This document shows positions 994 to 7,105 of a stretch of DNA of 7,105 bases, one piece after another. The stretch's first letter is position 1. Every line of letters starts with the position of its first letter. This DNA is from Candidatus Desantisiibacteriota bacterium (lineage in GTDB: Bacteria > JACRDZ01): NCBI GenBank assembly GCA_016209155.1, contig JACQWU010000110.1:6986-14090 (forward strand). The letters are read 5' to 3'. Made by a program: the position numbers and the translations under genes. The notes beneath the pieces were generated by a model, which made no database searches, was not told the DNA's origin, and worked only from the letters and a program-made list of their open reading frames with translations.

Positions 994-1758
994 CTAATCA
1001 TATTGATATTTATCAACCCATAATTTATATCTGTCTGAATATGCAGGTTGATTGGAAAATGTTAAAATAAACCTTATAATCTGCTGAGGCAAAATTTTTT
1101 GCGGAATCATATCGGATGGGGCGGATGCTTCTTCAAGAATTTCATCTTTTAGCCCGTAAATCTTGCCTTTTATTACCAGATTCTTTATGGATTTATTAGA
1201 TAAATTTACTAATTTCCCGGCAACTTTAAAATATTCCTTATCCTGATCAAATTGCACAAAACTCTTATGATTAATAAATTTAACCGGAAAACCAAGCCAT
1301 CTTTCTGCTATATCAGTAGAATCAGAAGAAGCTATTTTTCGTTTTATTAAATGCAGATCCTTTTTTATTTCACTTACTTCCATATTCAAAGTATCGAATT
1401 TAACTTTTGTGCTTTCTAAGGCTAATTTTGCAGTATCACCTTTGTTTTTTTCAGTTAAAATGACCGGTTTTTTAACAATTTTATTTTTTTCAATTTTCCC
1501 GAGATTACTTTCAATTTTTCCGAGCTTTGATTCAAAAGTTATTAAATCTTTATTAAAACTCTTCATTTCTTTAATCTGCTCTTTTAATTTATCGATTTCT
1601 TTATTCTGATTGTCAATGGCCATTACTATATGATCCTTAAATTCCAATTGTTTTTTTTCCAATTCAGCATATTGATTTTTCTGACAACCGGTTCCAAAAA
1701 ACAAAAAAATATTTAAAAACAAATGAATAATCAGCTTTACTATTTTTTTATTCTGCAT
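994..1758 (-). CDS. Predicted coiled-coil lipoprotein in the flagellar cluster, function unknown
   Basis: I do not recognise this 254-residue protein as a named family. It starts with a lysine-containing n-region and a hydrophobic stretch (about 7-23) ending in FGTGC, so Cys25 is a probable lipidation site; the -3 glycine is unusual but TGC is common. Residues about 28-145 are rich in Lys, Glu, Leu and Ile and look like a coiled coil, including a tandem heptad SKLGKIE/SNLGKIE at 77-90. The last 85 or so residues (about 170-252) look like a small beta-sandwich of the FxLYD kind: FKVAGKLVNLSNKSIKNLVIKGKIYGL, then the IPQKILPQQIIRFILTF strands (described here in two pieces). This is an inference from pattern. 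It lies between fliL and flgF, downstream of the fliL promoter, so an envelope role near the flagellar basal body is plausible but unproven. The start has only a weak GGAT site 8 nt upstream. Confidence 0.75.
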   Translation of the reverse strand: MQNKKIVKLIIHLFLNIFLFFGTGCQKNQYAELEKKQLEFKDHIVMAIDNQNKEIDKLKEQIKEMKSFNKDLITFESKLGKIESNLGKIEKNKIVKKPVILTEKNKGDTAKLALESTKVKFDTLNMEVSEIKKDLHLIKRKIASSDSTDIAERWLGFPVKFINHKSFVQFDQDKEYFKVAGKLVNLSNKSIKNLVIKGKIYGLKDEILEEASAPSDMIPQKILPQQIIRFILTFSNQPAYSDRYKLWVDKYQYD

Positions 1759-2619: not shown

Positions 2620-4554
2620 TTATTCAATCGGCAATTCAACAATAAATGCTGAACCTATACCCGGTTCAGATTCAAAGGATAAATTGCCTTTATGTTTCTT
2701 CACAATAGTCTGGTATGATATTGATAATCCCTGTCCTGTGCCTTTTCCGACTTCTTTAGTTGTAAAAAACGGTTCGAATATTCTACTTCTTATCTCCGGT
2801 TTTATCCCAACACCGGTATCTCTGACTGTAATTACAGCAAAAGAATCTTTTTTGCATGTAGTTATAGTAATTATTCCTTTATTTGATTCTTTTCCTTTTT
2901 CTTTTATAGCATGAGCGGCATTAATAATGAGATTAAGAATAACTTGTTTAATCTCCCCTATAATACAATTAACCAAAGGTAAAGACCTATCCAAATTGGT
3001 TATCAATTCCGCCGTATATTTCCATTCATTTCTGGAGATTGTAACAGTGGTTTCAATTGCTTTATTAATATCTTCTTTAGCTTTTTCTCCTGTCCCCATA
3101 TGAGAAAAATCCTTCATTGCTTTAACTATATTTGAAACACGGTCAACCCCCTCTAAAGTTTGAGTTATTGCTTTTGGAATCTCATCTTTAAAAAATTCCA
3201 GGTCAATCTTACTTTCTATTTGTTTTATCTGTTCCGCAAAATCATTTGAGTCTTTTATATGTTTTGTTTGAAGCTTTTTATATGTACTTACTAATTCAAA
3301 AATATCCCTTACAGAATCATTTAGAAAACGCACATTATCACCAATAAATTGTATTGGCGTATTAATTTCATGAGCAATTCCAGCCGCCAGAGTCCCTATT
3401 GATTCTAACTTTTGTTGTTGTGTTAATTGAAATTTAAGTTCTTTAGGTTCTGTAATATCCTTTGAAATATGAACTACCTGAAATATATTTCCATTATTAT
3501 CTTTTATAGGAGAAGTAGAAACTTCCACAAATCTTTTATCCCCATTTTGTCTGTAATGTATATGCTCTGCAATTGCATACTTTCCGGTTTTAACAGTTTC
3601 CATGAGTGGACAGATATCATATGGCGGAGAACAAGGCGAAGTTCTTTTATGAGTTATTTCATAACATTTTTTACCAATAACTTTTGAATTGTCATCAATT
3701 CCACATCCCTCAAGAAAAACACTATTTACAGCTATTATTTTAAAATCATTAATATCAATAATAGCAATAGAATCATTCATACTGTTGAGGATAGTTTTAG
3801 TAAATTCATAAGATCGTTCCAGAGAATCTTTTGATACAAGAATTCCCGATAAATCTTCAGCCATTTTATTTAATACTACACCTAATTCACCTATTTCATT
3901 TTTTGTTTTAACATTGACTCTCTGATTTATATTTCCACTGCCTATTGACTTCGAAACTTTAATAATTTCATTAAGCGGATCTGTTATTTTTTTGGCAAAA
4001 AAAACCGATAAAGCAATCGCAGAAAGTATGACCAAAATAGTAATACCTATTAATAATTCTAAAAGGTTATTTATGGTTTCTTGAATTGATTTTTCCGTAA
4101 TTCCCAGATGAACTTCCCCTATACCATTTTTTGATAGACGTATGCCTATATCCAAAATAATCCCTTTATCAGTATCAATAGTTTGAACACTGGATGTATG
4201 TTTTTTATTGAGTACGTTTATATTTTTAAGTTCTACGGGGAAACCATCTAAAAATGTATGGACTAATATTTCTCCATTTGAATCAGTAATAAATATGTAC
4301 TCAATATCGTCTTCCTGGTTTTTTAAATCATTAACAAAAATTAGCATTTGAAATTCTGAAACATTTTCAGTTAAAAAAAGGTTAATCCATCCACTGGCAA
4401 TATTTTTAGCTATGGACATACCTCTTTTAATAAGTTCACCGCGAAGCATTTTAGTTAATGTAGTACTGGTAAATATTACTATTGGTAAAACCAATAAAAG
4501 AATCATGGCTGAAAAACTTATCATAAATTTGGATTTTAAGCTTATGGTTTTCAT
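2620..4554 (-). CDS. Membrane histidine kinase: Cache-like sensor, HAMP, Cys-containing PAS, HisKA/HATPase
   Basis: Sensor histidine kinase of a two-component system, 644 residues from the chosen start. Order: transmembrane helix about 10-30; extracytoplasmic sensor about 33-162, with IEYIFITDSNGEILVHTF resembling a single Cache fold; second helix about 163-187; HAMP to about 238 (ITDPLNEI, NEIGELG); PAS about 250-370 containing Cys297, Cys308 and Cys315 in KKCYEITHKRTSPC and ICPL; then the phosphoacceptor His395 in AGIAHEINTPIQ. The dimerisation region is long (about 395-490), as in NTPIQ-type kinases. The ATPase has the N box (LNLIINAAHA, Asn545), DTGVGI (Asp579), FEPFFTTK and GKGTGQGLS. 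All catalytic motifs look intact. An ATG 18 nt upstream is in frame, but it contains the GGAAGGA ribosome site of the ATG at 4552-4554, so the shorter form is preferred. It follows the binding-protein gene by 59 bp and has no fused receiver. The likely partner is the response regulator two genes upstream. Confidence 0.92.
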   Translation of the reverse strand: MKTISLKSKFMISFSAMILLLVLPIVIFTSTTLTKMLRGELIKRGMSIAKNIASGWINLFLTENVSEFQMLIFVNDLKNQEDDIEYIFITDSNGEILVHTFLDGFPVELKNINVLNKKHTSSVQTIDTDKGIILDIGIRLSKNGIGEVHLGITEKSIQETINNLLELLIGITILVILSAIALSVFFAKKITDPLNEIIKVSKSIGSGNINQRVNVKTKNEIGELGVVLNKMAEDLSGILVSKDSLERSYEFTKTILNSMNDSIAIIDINDFKIIAVNSVFLEGCGIDDNSKVIGKKCYEITHKRTSPCSPPYDICPLMETVKTGKYAIAEHIHYRQNGDKRFVEVSTSPIKDNNGNIFQVVHISKDITEPKELKFQLTQQQKLESIGTLAAGIAHEINTPIQFIGDNVRFLNDSVRDIFELVSTYKKLQTKHIKDSNDFAEQIKQIESKIDLEFFKDEIPKAITQTLEGVDRVSNIVKAMKDFSHMGTGEKAKEDINKAIETTVTISRNEWKYTAELITNLDRSLPLVNCIIGEIKQVILNLIINAAHAIKEKGKESNKGIITITTCKKDSFAVITVRDTGVGIKPEIRSRIFEPFFTTKEVGKGTGQGLSISYQTIVKKHKGNLSFESEPGIGSAFIVELPIE

Positions 4555-4562
4555 AATATTAA

Positions 4563-4570
4563 TTCCTTCC
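4563..4570 (-). promoter_or_regulatory. Ribosome binding site that sets the kinase start
   Basis: GGAAGGAA on the minus strand, with 9 nt between its AAGGA core and the ATG at 4552-4554. The alternative ATG at 4570-4572 overlaps this site and has no purine-rich site of its own, so the start at 4554 is the better call. Confidence 0.75.
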
Positions 4571-4613
4571 ATCTATGTTGATTGCGATATTTTGCAAATA
4601 CTTAGTTTTTTAT

Positions 4614-5531
4614 TCACCTTAAAGATTTAATATTTTTTTTTATTTCACGAATCGAATTATAAGCGCTATCATATATAGTAACAAATTTATCTATCATCAT
4701 GCCTTTTAGAATTTCCTTGCCATTATTATCATTATGCGCATTTAGAAATACTTCTTTTAATTTATTTTTTAATTCCGGATTTAATCCATGACGCACCACA
4801 ACCGGTGGAATTCCATAAGGAGAAGATTTCTTAATAATTTTAGTTTGCGAAGTAATTTCAGGATTAATACGATTAAAATATTCCCAAATTAAACTATCGA
4901 CTGACGCGCCATCCACTATTCCCTGAGCAACTGCTTTTATTGATTTATCATGTGATTTAGTATAGAGAATTTTTTTAAAAAAAGTTTCCGGTGTTGCATT
5001 TATTTGAGCCAGCAGAAAAGGCGGGATTATTTTTCCTGTATTGGATAAAGGATCCGTAAAAGCAAAGATTTTTCCTTTTAATTCTTTAAAAGATTTAATT
5101 TTACTATTTTTATGTACAATAATATAAGAATGGTATACAGTTCCACCATAAACTTGCGGCGCAACTAAAAGCTCCATCCCAAATTCACTATGTCCATCAA
5201 CATAGGGACCTCCGCACACAAATGCTAAATCAACCGCGCTATTTTTTATCAATTTATTTATTTCCGCATAACCTTCTCTATCAACATAAATTATGTCTTT
5301 CCCTGTTTTACCGGCAATATAATCTAAAAAACGTTTATAATATCCAAACCCTTCTTTGGGTGTTATCATTCCTCCGGCTGCTATCCTGATTGATTCCTTG
5401 CTTGATAATTTATGTTTTACTTTTAGTGTCTCTTTTTTCTCAAAACTGATTTTTTTAGGTGTATCCTTCTTACTACAGCTAAAAAATAATAAAAAAATAA
5501 AAAATGAAAAAATAAGAAATTTTTTAAACAT
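4614..5531 (-). CDS. PhnD-type periplasmic substrate-binding lipoprotein, likely a sensory partner of the kinase
   Basis: A 305-residue protein of the phosphate/phosphite/phosphonate binding-protein family (type 2 periplasmic fold). The N-terminus is a hydrophobic signal (about 4-17) ending in FFSC, so Cys19 is the probable lipidated residue, followed by a charged linker to about 45. The fold starts at SIRIAAGGMITPKEG, has GYYKRFLDYIAGKTG, then the signature VDLAFVCGGPYV with Cys106, ELKGKIFAFTDPLSNTG (about 150-166), and AVAQGIVDGASVDSLIWEY (about 200-218). No ABC permease or ATPase gene is adjacent; instead a kinase gene follows by 59 bp and a response regulator precedes by 22 bp. Family members such as AioX (arsenite) and the sensor domain of TtrS (tetrathionate) act in signalling, so a ligand-sensing role is inferred. 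The ligand is unknown. AAAGGA lies 8 nt upstream of the start. Confidence 0.85.
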   Translation of the reverse strand: MFKKFLIFSFFIFLLFFSCSKKDTPKKISFEKKETLKVKHKLSSKESIRIAAGGMITPKEGFGYYKRFLDYIAGKTGKDIIYVDREGYAEINKLIKNSAVDLAFVCGGPYVDGHSEFGMELLVAPQVYGGTVYHSYIIVHKNSKIKSFKELKGKIFAFTDPLSNTGKIIPPFLLAQINATPETFFKKILYTKSHDKSIKAVAQGIVDGASVDSLIWEYFNRINPEITSQTKIIKKSSPYGIPPVVVRHGLNPELKNKLKEVFLNAHNDNNGKEILKGMMIDKFVTIYDSAYNSIREIKKNIKSLR

Positions 5532-5539
5532 TTTGTTTA

Positions 5540-5545
5540 TCCTTT
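5540..5545 (-). promoter_or_regulatory. Ribosome binding site of the binding-protein gene
   Basis: AAAGGA on the minus strand, 8 nt before the ATG at 5529-5531. It lies in the 22 bp gap after the response-regulator stop codon, which leaves no room for a separate promoter in that gap. Confidence 0.65.
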
Positions 5546-5553
5546 CATCAGAA

Positions 5554-6690
5554 TTAAAAAATTGACACTAAAATATCTTTCTTCATATTTCCCTGTCTAT
5601 AATAATTATTAAGCATACTCCCCATAGTCGGAGTGATTTCCTGTCCTTTTTTTACAAGTAAAACTCCGCTCTTTGTCATTATATCTTCTTCTAAAGACAT
5701 CCCTTTACTCAATTCTGTTAAATTTACTTTTATAATCTTTTTTTCTGCTTTAGGTAAATTTATTTTATCTAATACGGATAAAATTTTTGGATTATATAAA
5801 TAATGATTATTATAAAGTGATTCAATCGCATCTTTTTTTGAATTACCGGAAGAAAGCTGATACTCGTAATCTATTGCAATTCTTAAAATTTGCGAACCAA
5901 TTTCAATATATGATTTATCCGGATCATCAGGAGGTTTAGTGTTATCGAAATTATATTTTTGCCGGGCTATTATTTCAGCAATAGATTCAAGCCGTGGAAT
6001 ATTTTTAATAAGCTCACTTCCGATATGAGGAAAAGCTTTTACCATTTCCTGTTCATCGGGAGACAGATCTTTCATGCAATAAATTTTTTCAAGTACTTCC
6101 GAAGGAATTGTTACACATCCAATTTGTGAAAGCAATGCTGATACTTCAAAACGCCAGATATCCTGTAATTGAAGCAATTTGGATATTTCAACAACAAAAT
6201 ATTTAATTTTATTAGTATGACTGAATGCAATAGGATTTATCAGTGAAAGTATTTCTATAAGAACTTTTATACTCCCATTTAGAGTCTTTTCAAGAAGTTC
6301 CCTTTCTGCCATAAGCAAATGATATTGTTTAAGCGCGGAACCAAGTACTTTGACTATAATTTCCTGCGAACATGGTTTTGTTAAAAACCTGAATATATTC
6401 CCTTCATTTACCGAAGCAATAGCAGTATCTATGTCAGCATGTCCTGTAAGCATTATGCGAATAGTATCCGGATATTTTTCTTTAACTTTTGCAAGGAATT
6501 GAATCCCGTCCATACCCGGCATACTCATATCGGAAACCACCACAAAAGGAGGACCTTCTTTTTCCATAATATTTAAAGCGTCATCTCCGGATAATGCTAT
6601 AGAGATATTAAATATTTTGTATAATTGCCTTTTTAACGCATCTAAAATATTTTTTTCATCATCAACAAATAGAACTTTATCTAAAGCCAT
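5554..6690 (-). CDS. Response regulator: receiver plus degenerate HD-GYP-like domain
   Basis: A 378-residue response regulator. Residues 1-120 form an intact receiver: acidic pair Asp10-Asp11, phosphoacceptor Asp54 (SDMSMPGMDG), Thr82 (LTGHAD) and Lys105 (FLTKP). Residues about 135-310 resemble the HD-GYP domain of RpfG-type regulators (COG3437), but the metal ligands are gone: the LLHDIG position reads LLSQIG (Ser188-Gln189), the next His-Pro reads Phe220-Pro221, the His-His pair reads Arg243-Gln244, and no GYP motif is present. It is therefore unlikely to hydrolyse c-di-GMP and probably works by binding a partner. Residues about 320-378 (VNLTELSKGMSLEEDIMTKSG and LLVKKGQEIT) match a small C-terminal domain found in HD-GYP and HDOD proteins. 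AAGGGA lies 6 nt upstream, inside the end of the HDOD gene, whose stop is 2 bp away, suggesting translational coupling. The likely kinase is encoded two genes downstream. Confidence 0.9.
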   Translation of the reverse strand: MALDKVLFVDDEKNILDALKRQLYKIFNISIALSGDDALNIMEKEGPPFVVVSDMSMPGMDGIQFLAKVKEKYPDTIRIMLTGHADIDTAIASVNEGNIFRFLTKPCSQEIIVKVLGSALKQYHLLMAERELLEKTLNGSIKVLIEILSLINPIAFSHTNKIKYFVVEISKLLQLQDIWRFEVSALLSQIGCVTIPSEVLEKIYCMKDLSPDEQEMVKAFPHIGSELIKNIPRLESIAEIIARQKYNFDNTKPPDDPDKSYIEIGSQILRIAIDYEYQLSSGNSKKDAIESLYNNHYLYNPKILSVLDKINLPKAEKKIIKVNLTELSKGMSLEEDIMTKSGVLLVKKGQEITPTMGSMLNNYYRQGNMKKDILVSIF

Positions 6691-6692
6691 AT

Positions 6693-7105
6693 TTATTCCC
6701 TTTTTTCTCCCGCGAATTTAGTATACTTACGCCATTCCTGTAATTTCTCTAAAATATTCAATTTCTGCAAATATTTTATTTCAGGTTTTGTCATATCAAT
6801 TCCACTAAAATATTCCGGATTTTTCTCTAAAATATTGGCAAAATATACACTGTGTACACAATTAAAAGTATTTTCTAAAACTGGATCAAATGAATGATGA
6901 AAAATTATGGAATTTATTGAATTATCAGAAAAACCCCATGTCTCCATAATGCACCCCCCCACTTCCGCGTGATTTACTCCAAAATGCTGATTTTCCAGCA
7001 TATATAAAGGGATACCGTCTTGAATATGCTGTTTATAAATTTCATTATAGATTTCAGGCATATTTTTTATAAAAATTATTTTCCCGATATCATGCAGAAT
7101 CCCTG
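6693..7105 (-). CDS. HDOD-domain signalling protein (C-terminal 136 residues; 5' end outside window)
   Basis: The C-terminal part of an HDOD-domain protein, a family of non-catalytic HD relatives used in signal transduction, often beside response regulators and chemotaxis genes. The frame stays open to the right edge and reads GILHDIGKIIFIKNMPEIY there, so the internal ATG at 7059-7061 is not the true start. HDOD signatures follow: HFGVNHAEVGGCIMETWGF, then SIIFHHSFDP. The tail is Lys- and Glu-rich and ends GEKRE. The core His-Asp of LHDIGK and the later His residues are present, but in this family they do not by themselves show enzymatic activity. It ends 2 bp before the response regulator start. 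A run of seven G (7 C on the plus strand) encodes part of EVGG; the frame is intact across it. The missing N-terminus could carry another domain. Confidence 0.88.
   Translation of the reverse strand, partial: GILHDIGKIIFIKNMPEIYNEIYKQHIQDGIPLYMLENQHFGVNHAEVGGCIMETWGFSDNSINSIIFHHSFDPVLENTFNCVHSVYFANILEKNPEYFSGIDMTKPEIKYLQKLNILEKLQEWRKYTKFAGEKRE
6697..6702 (-). promoter_or_regulatory. Ribosome binding site of the response regulator, inside the HDOD gene
   Basis: AAGGGA on the minus strand, 6 nt before the ATG at 6688-6690. It lies within the last codons of the HDOD gene, so translation of the two genes is probably coupled. Confidence 0.6.

Follow-up and report, generated by a model that had tools for sequence, protein, structure and literature searches.

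A candidate sensory operon coupling an AioX/ArrX-type binding lipoprotein to two putatively non-catalytic HD-superfamily response regulators in a Candidatus Desantisiibacteriota bacterium

The window analyzed here is a whole stretch of 7,105 nucleotides at the end of a contig (JACQWU010000110.1, here C264) from the metagenome-assembled genome of a Candidatus Desantisiibacteriota bacterium, an assembly of 3.08 Mb that is 79% complete, so that absences from the genome are provisional. The window carries four minus-strand genes that, in the order of transcription, encode a response regulator with an HDOD domain (REC-HDOD), a response regulator with a degenerate HD-GYP domain (REC-HD*), a binding lipoprotein and a membrane sensor histidine kinase (Table 1). 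The gaps between them are 2, 22 and 41 bp, in agreement with the first-pass annotation, made from the letters of the window alone, which had described a tightly packed apparent operon. The kinase gene has an alternative ATG start at 4554.

Table 1. Position of the operon genes and of the two kinase halves; positions refer to the window unless a contig is named
Feature	Position	Strand	Basis
REC-HDOD, C-terminal part	6693..7103	-	HDOD profile positions 125-195; runs off the contig end
REC-HDOD, N-terminal piece (first 266 residues)	G000:C162:1-799	-	REC and HDOD positions 1-116
REC-HD* response regulator	5554..6690	-	Pfam REC 70.7 bits and HD_5 83.4 bits; C-terminal beta-rich tail
AioX/ArrX-type binding lipoprotein	4614..5531	-	Phosphonate-bd 193 bits; pocket; tree
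Membrane sensor histidine kinase, apparently chimeric (sCache-HAMP-PAS front and HEINTPIQ core, H401)	2620..4572	-	Pfam HATPase/PAS/HAMP
Kinase periplasmic sCache-like sensor half (residues 31-185)	4018..4482	-	Alignment, genome searches, adjacency
Kinase catalytic core (residues 379-650)	2620..3438	-	Bit scores against cassette kinase open reading frames

The HDOD gene is broken by the contig end at position 125 of the HDOD profile. The domain, already named in the first-pass annotation, is supported by the piece in the window (57.9 bits versus a cut-off of 22.9), but a reading of the protein as a stand-alone one was dropped once its receiver half turned up on another contig. The low end of contig C162 carries the complementary truncated HDOD domain (99.2 bits) after an intact receiver (80.0 bits) with the phospho-site residues D13, D59, S87 and K108, and alignment to relatives leaves about three residues missing between both pieces. 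Hence, the HDOD gene very probably encodes a response regulator and the operon holds two of them. On C162, the contig that probably joins the window, a CheR gene is divergent from the REC-HDOD gene (L033:968-1810), and two methyl-accepting proteins with repeated HAMP-like segments are also encoded (L033:2320-6860).

In the second regulator the receiver is intact (D10, D54, T82 and K105), whereas the HD domain carries SQ in place of HD, QK in place of HH and KPP in place of GYP. The metal residues and the GYP motif by which an HD-GYP phosphodiesterase of cyclic dimeric guanosine monophosphate (c-di-GMP) of the RpfG type is recognized are thus missing from its sequence. The loss is general: of 88 REC-HD* proteins, not one retains more than two of the four core metal residues. 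Ser replaces the catalytic His of HD in 66 of them, Gln replaces the Asp in 54, and the leading His of HH has become Gln in 74. The replacement residues (SQIGC) are themselves conserved, from which selection for another role, probably binding, can fairly be deduced. The best NCBIfam match is the NosR family (NF053512, 237.1 bits); by the cut-off of 400 bits the protein appears related to that family without being a member of it. The structure of REC-HD* was predicted with a mean local confidence (pLDDT) of 89.9, but the matches in the fold search were filled by receiver domains, with HD* and the tail barely covered. The first-pass annotation had proposed a non-catalytic output through two HD-superfamily proteins; the loss of metal ligands in all 88 agrees with it, and both proteins turn out to be response regulators.

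The pair of regulators is not peculiar to this genome. Scanning of 84,980 species genomes with the REC-HD* alignment confirmed at least 573 stretches, from which 80 loci were kept, and these loci, among the matches listed, span more than ten phyla. Within this set REC-HD* lies beside a same-strand HDOD gene in 60 of 81 named genes, and 50 of those 60 pairs have a kinase within 4 kb. The core of REC-HDOD, REC-HD* and kinase is therefore a widespread cassette, present among others in the culturable Desulfopila aestuarii and Sedimenticola selenatireducens. It is undescribed in the literature that we found, in a search made mostly outside subscription journals. Some cassettes contain extra genes, namely an intact REC-HD-GYP (L029 and L077) or a REC-EAL (L100). 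Two other lineages (L044/L027 and L050) have a cassette kinase with a PhnD-type domain fused to it, and in a third (L108) a similar fused PhnD kinase lies a few kb from a REC-HD* gene; the PhnD domains of these fusions are devoid of the AioX pocket.

The lipoprotein belongs to a distinct branch of the PhnD family. Among solved chains, it comes nearest to the Chrysiogenes arsenate sensor ArrX (197 bits, E 3e-57), followed by AioX (129 bits) and, far below, PtxB (72 bits) and E. coli PhnD (36 bits). The other PhnD-family protein of the genome (contig C11), used as a control, is nearest to the transport proteins PhnD/PtxB (94 bits) and scores 59 bits against ArrX. The AioX pocket is formed by Y88, C106, Y131, S161, S163, H192 and D210 (PMC5908839), and mutation of its Cys abolishes both arsenite binding and induction (PMC7533571). 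The corresponding residues of the lipoprotein are Y88, C106, Y133, S163, T165, H194 and D212; six are identical, and the only change, Ser163 of AioX to Thr, is conservative and common to most relatives. Transport proteins have Gly instead of the Cys, and the Asp is absent. In a maximum-likelihood tree the lipoprotein, ArrX, AioX and 49 relatives form a clade of 52 rows (support 97/98), with PtxB/PhnD and the second PhnD-family protein of the genome outside. Judged by pocket and phylogeny, the lipoprotein would thus be a member of the AioX/ArrX/ArxX subfamily, and its score against ArrX, pocket and tree position rule out a generic PhnD. A single-sequence model of the lipoprotein (pLDDT 36.8) was too poor to be used.

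A search at E<=1e-30 found relatives of the lipoprotein in 44 of 395 genomes from the phylum of genome G026. Among 386 broader genomes, 21 have such a relative, with the genome studied here counted. These relatives mostly adjoin kinases and response regulators, of which several are of NtrC type. A molybdoenzyme gene is often close by as well, and two of the molybdoenzymes are ArrA-like (1108 and 1288 bits, below the cut-off of 1600). In seven loci (L165, L173, L176, L178, L183, L221 and L228) a kinase and a response regulator are preceded by an open reading frame holding two PhnD-family domains; in the five that were compared by residue, an ArrX-type domain comes first and a domain with a transport-like pocket second. 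The control protein on contig C11, whose pocket is transport-like with Gly at the Cys position, adjoins a membrane histidine kinase (L006:4827-7508) and may be another co-receptor, for a different ligand.

The first-pass annotation had also remarked that no transporter genes accompany the binding protein, and had named PhnC/PhnE genes just outside the window as one finding that would speak against its proposed sensory system. The remaining contig is flagellar, with FliL and FlgF/G type genes followed by ring, hook-associated and flagellin-like genes, and holds no Phn transporter genes. A search of the incomplete genome gave no PhnE above the cut-off, PhnC not being searched by itself. The two best matches below the cut-off were Pst phosphate systems (contigs C125 and C40), and the third was a polar amino-acid-type permease beside an amino-acid-type binding protein (C11). 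On this contig the lipoprotein is accordingly found without the PhnC/PhnE partner genes on which assignment to a phosphonate ATP-binding cassette (ABC) transporter is based.

The kinase looks chimeric, with a sensor half linked to PhnD-type lipoproteins and a catalytic half of cassette type. The match of the sensor half to sCache_3_2 is below the cut-off (25.1 versus 28.4 bits) but above it in relatives (46.4 bits in L220). The sensor family was found in 28 of 33 kinase open reading frames adjoining a PhnD-type gene versus 1 of 145 others. Because these loci had been chosen for PhnD or REC-HD*, an independent test was made, in which the 395 genomes mentioned above were searched with a profile of the sensor, with 53 matches at E<=1e-26 in the tested part of the list. 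Only 29 of the 53 adjoined an ArrX-type gene, a count that looked weak because PhnD had been sought at E<=1e-30. Another 18 loci were inspected, and in 15 of these a more remotely related PhnD-family gene lies directly upstream. Adjacency to a PhnD-family gene thus holds for 44 of the 47 matches assessed, 6 of the 53 being left out. Among the three unpaired loci, L253 is at a contig edge, as is the PhnD gene of its genome, L242 has no PhnD match, and L254 starts near the end of its stretch, without a match. Some 60 natural pairs of lipoprotein and sensor were found altogether.

The sensor half of the window kinase is closest (101-105 bits) to proteins of the same-phylum genomes G003 and G001, in which the lipoprotein gene is followed by an sCache-HAMP-PAS protein with an intact HD-GYP end. 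The catalytic half, in turn, scores a median of 267 bits against 89 cassette kinase open reading frames from REC-HD* loci versus at most 116 bits against 26 frames bearing the PhnD-linked sensor. The HEINTPxQ motif is present in the window kinase, in 56 of the 77 cassette frames scoring above 60 bits and in none of 20 sensor-bearing frames. Kinase and cassette counts refer to open frames of six-frame translations, some frameshifted or nested ones included. The sensor domains of 42 cassette kinases are diverse (PAS, GAF, MHYT, CHASE4, CHASE8, MASE3, dCache and PhnD).

Other receptors accompany such lipoproteins elsewhere. In the same phylum, L220:8447-11090 and L222:95-2747 encode an AioX/ArrX-like lipoprotein, with Ser at the Cys position, and a membrane sCache-HAMP-PAS-HD-GYP protein whose catalytic motifs are intact and which may be a phosphodiesterase under direct control by an oxyanion. 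In genome G344 a methyl-accepting chemotaxis protein (MCP) with a weaker relative of the sensor domain adjoins the lipoprotein gene. In L160:4713-8887 the gene of an ArrX-type binding protein comes immediately after an MCP gene, and another PhnD-like gene, on the opposite strand, flanks it at the other side; this ArrX-type protein is a possible chemotaxis co-receptor.

Taking into account that: (i) the lipoprotein has the clade position and the pocket of AioX/ArrX; (ii) the kinase combines a sensor of the sCache family with the cassette core, and (iii) both regulators keep the receiver Asp while the metal site of HD* is gone, all of which are read from the sequences themselves, we propose that the operon is probably an AioX/ArrX-like three-component system with a substituted output, in which an oxyanion co-receptor is rewired to two non-catalytic regulators. 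In the model, the lipoprotein would bind an oxyanion, most likely arsenate or arsenite, although phosphate is possible. The lipoprotein would dock on the sCache domain of the kinase, and docking would alter the kinase/phosphatase activity at H401, with the phosphoryl group passing to both REC-HDOD and REC-HD*. These steps are modelled on what is known of AioX and NosP systems. Both regulators would then work by binding partners, as suggested by the loss of the metal site and by the precedents of NosR and HnoD, most likely by holding back or freeing a c-di-GMP enzyme in the way that HnoD acts on HnoB. The genome contains 14 GGDEF and 17 HD_5 matches as possible targets, and the signal would reach adhesion or motility rather than a promoter. 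More tentatively, the REC-HDOD/REC-HD* pair may be an ancient general output module, a partner-binding switch made of two non-enzymatic HD proteins that can be phosphorylated. With the chimeric kinase linking it to an arsenic-oxyanion co-receptor, an arsenic-type signal would here control c-di-GMP enzymes or motility post-translationally instead of a reductase promoter.

Several points weigh against this model. The operon contains no gene for a c-di-GMP enzyme. Docking of the lipoprotein on the kinase and the join of C162 to C264 are both inferred. Neighbourhood analysis, suggested in the first-pass annotation as a check that the four genes stay together, found the regulator and kinase core and also the lipoprotein and sensor half widely, but the exact four-gene set only in this genome among the genomes searched. 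The remaining points concern the ligand. No ArrA-like arsenate reductase is present among the molybdoenzymes read in this 79% complete genome, which are a formate-dehydrogenase-like protein and a fragment, a third match (C269) being left out, and no full-length Acr3 was found above the cut-off in the incomplete genome; a relevance of arsenic to this organism is consequently putative. Moreover, in the binding-protein family of AioX the ligand cannot be told from the pocket residues by themselves, and phosphate could be that of the lipoprotein. A sensor of phosphate or phosphonate instead of arsenic, with the remaining mechanism unchanged, is therefore an alternative of appreciable, if lesser, probability: ArrX also binds phosphate weakly (PMC5908839), the genome holds two Pst systems and no Acr3 above the cut-off, and the pocket Cys is Ser in the same-phylum relatives G001 and G003. 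Nevertheless, the window lipoprotein retains both pocket residues peculiar to the AioX subfamily, the Cys and the Asp, and belongs to a clade apart from PtxB/PhnD.

It is rather unlikely that the output is transcriptional or chemotactic, with the regulators acting on the adjacent flagellar genes, or the operon belonging to a motility regulon, without c-di-GMP. The operon does lie between flagellar genes and, provided that C162 joins C264, genes for CheR and MCPs, and an effect on motility genes is reported for HDOD regulators such as GsmR (PMC4114195). Both regulators, however, are without a DNA-binding domain, and among the matches listed FliL, FlgF/G, CheR and MCP genes lie near 1, 1, 0 and 3 of the 80 cassette loci, respectively; a functional tie to flagella deduced from the neighbours was marked down for this rarity. 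Very improbable is an orphan transport protein that neighbours a self-sufficient Cache kinase by chance: although the name of its protein family is that of an ABC transporter and the Cache-like domain of the kinase could bind a ligand directly, the sensor family is nearly always beside PhnD-type genes, be it in kinases, in HD-GYP receptors or in the one MCP, no PhnE above the cut-off was found in the incomplete genome and natural PhnD-kinase fusions occur in the same cassette type. The role of kinase co-receptor that the first-pass annotation gave to the lipoprotein is favoured by these same adjacencies and fusions, and by ArrX and AioX being its nearest chains. Between the FliL and FlgF/G type genes, window positions 994-1758 encode a 254-residue coiled-coil, lipoprotein-like product with no Pfam match.

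The three-component model bears on how such inputs and outputs are combined. In a 2018 description, AioX orthologues alone among the members of their binding-protein family have a signalling role, and the regulators described for them bind DNA; in a 2022 review SBP_bac_3 was the only periplasmic-binding-protein family studied in c-di-GMP networks (PMC8846402). The locus suggests that the unit of co-receptor and sCache domain is an exchangeable input for kinases, HD-GYP enzymes and possibly chemoreceptors, while the output is a two-regulator cassette conserved, among the matches listed, in more than ten phyla. Under a label like HD_5 or 'NosR family c-di-GMP phosphodiesterase', proteins that have lost the metal site in all 88 cases examined would be taken for phosphodiesterases.

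Among known systems, the XSR systems (AioX-AioS-AioR, ArrX-ArrS-ArrR and ArxX-ArxS-ArxR) are alike in having a binding protein of the same clade and pocket, without an ABC transporter partner, by a membrane histidine kinase. The adjacent kinase here is an sCache-HAMP kinase; its sensor half is common to kinases beside ArrX-type proteins and its catalytic half is not, in a comparison drawn from kinases other than AioS and ArrS. The XSR regulators, however, bind DNA, being of the AtoC type with AAA+ or of the CitB/FixJ type, and their modules accompany molybdoenzyme genes, whereas here no such gene is nearby and flagellar genes fill the rest of the contig. Since its regulators are REC-HDOD and REC-HD*, which have no DNA-binding domain, the locus was not filed as an XSR member. 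NosP-NosK-NosR of Burkholderia likewise unites an auxiliary sensor, a kinase and a degenerate HD-GYP response regulator in one operon (PMC12570481), but NosP is a haem sensor of nitric oxide, NosK has no membrane part and no REC-HDOD is reported. In the HnoX-HnoK-HnoB/HnoC/HnoD system of Shewanella one kinase serves several response regulators, among them a degenerate HD-GYP protein, HnoD, which inhibits the EAL enzyme HnoB by binding (PMC6335343); unlike the operon described here, that system includes an active EAL regulator, senses through a nitric oxide-binding protein and has no HDOD. Finally, GsmR of Xanthomonas and DVU0330 of Desulfovibrio, the latter with no c-di-GMP activity detected, are HDOD response regulators for which the portions of the sources available to us describe no pairing with a REC-HD* gene or a binding protein, whereas here REC-HDOD stands in one operon with both.

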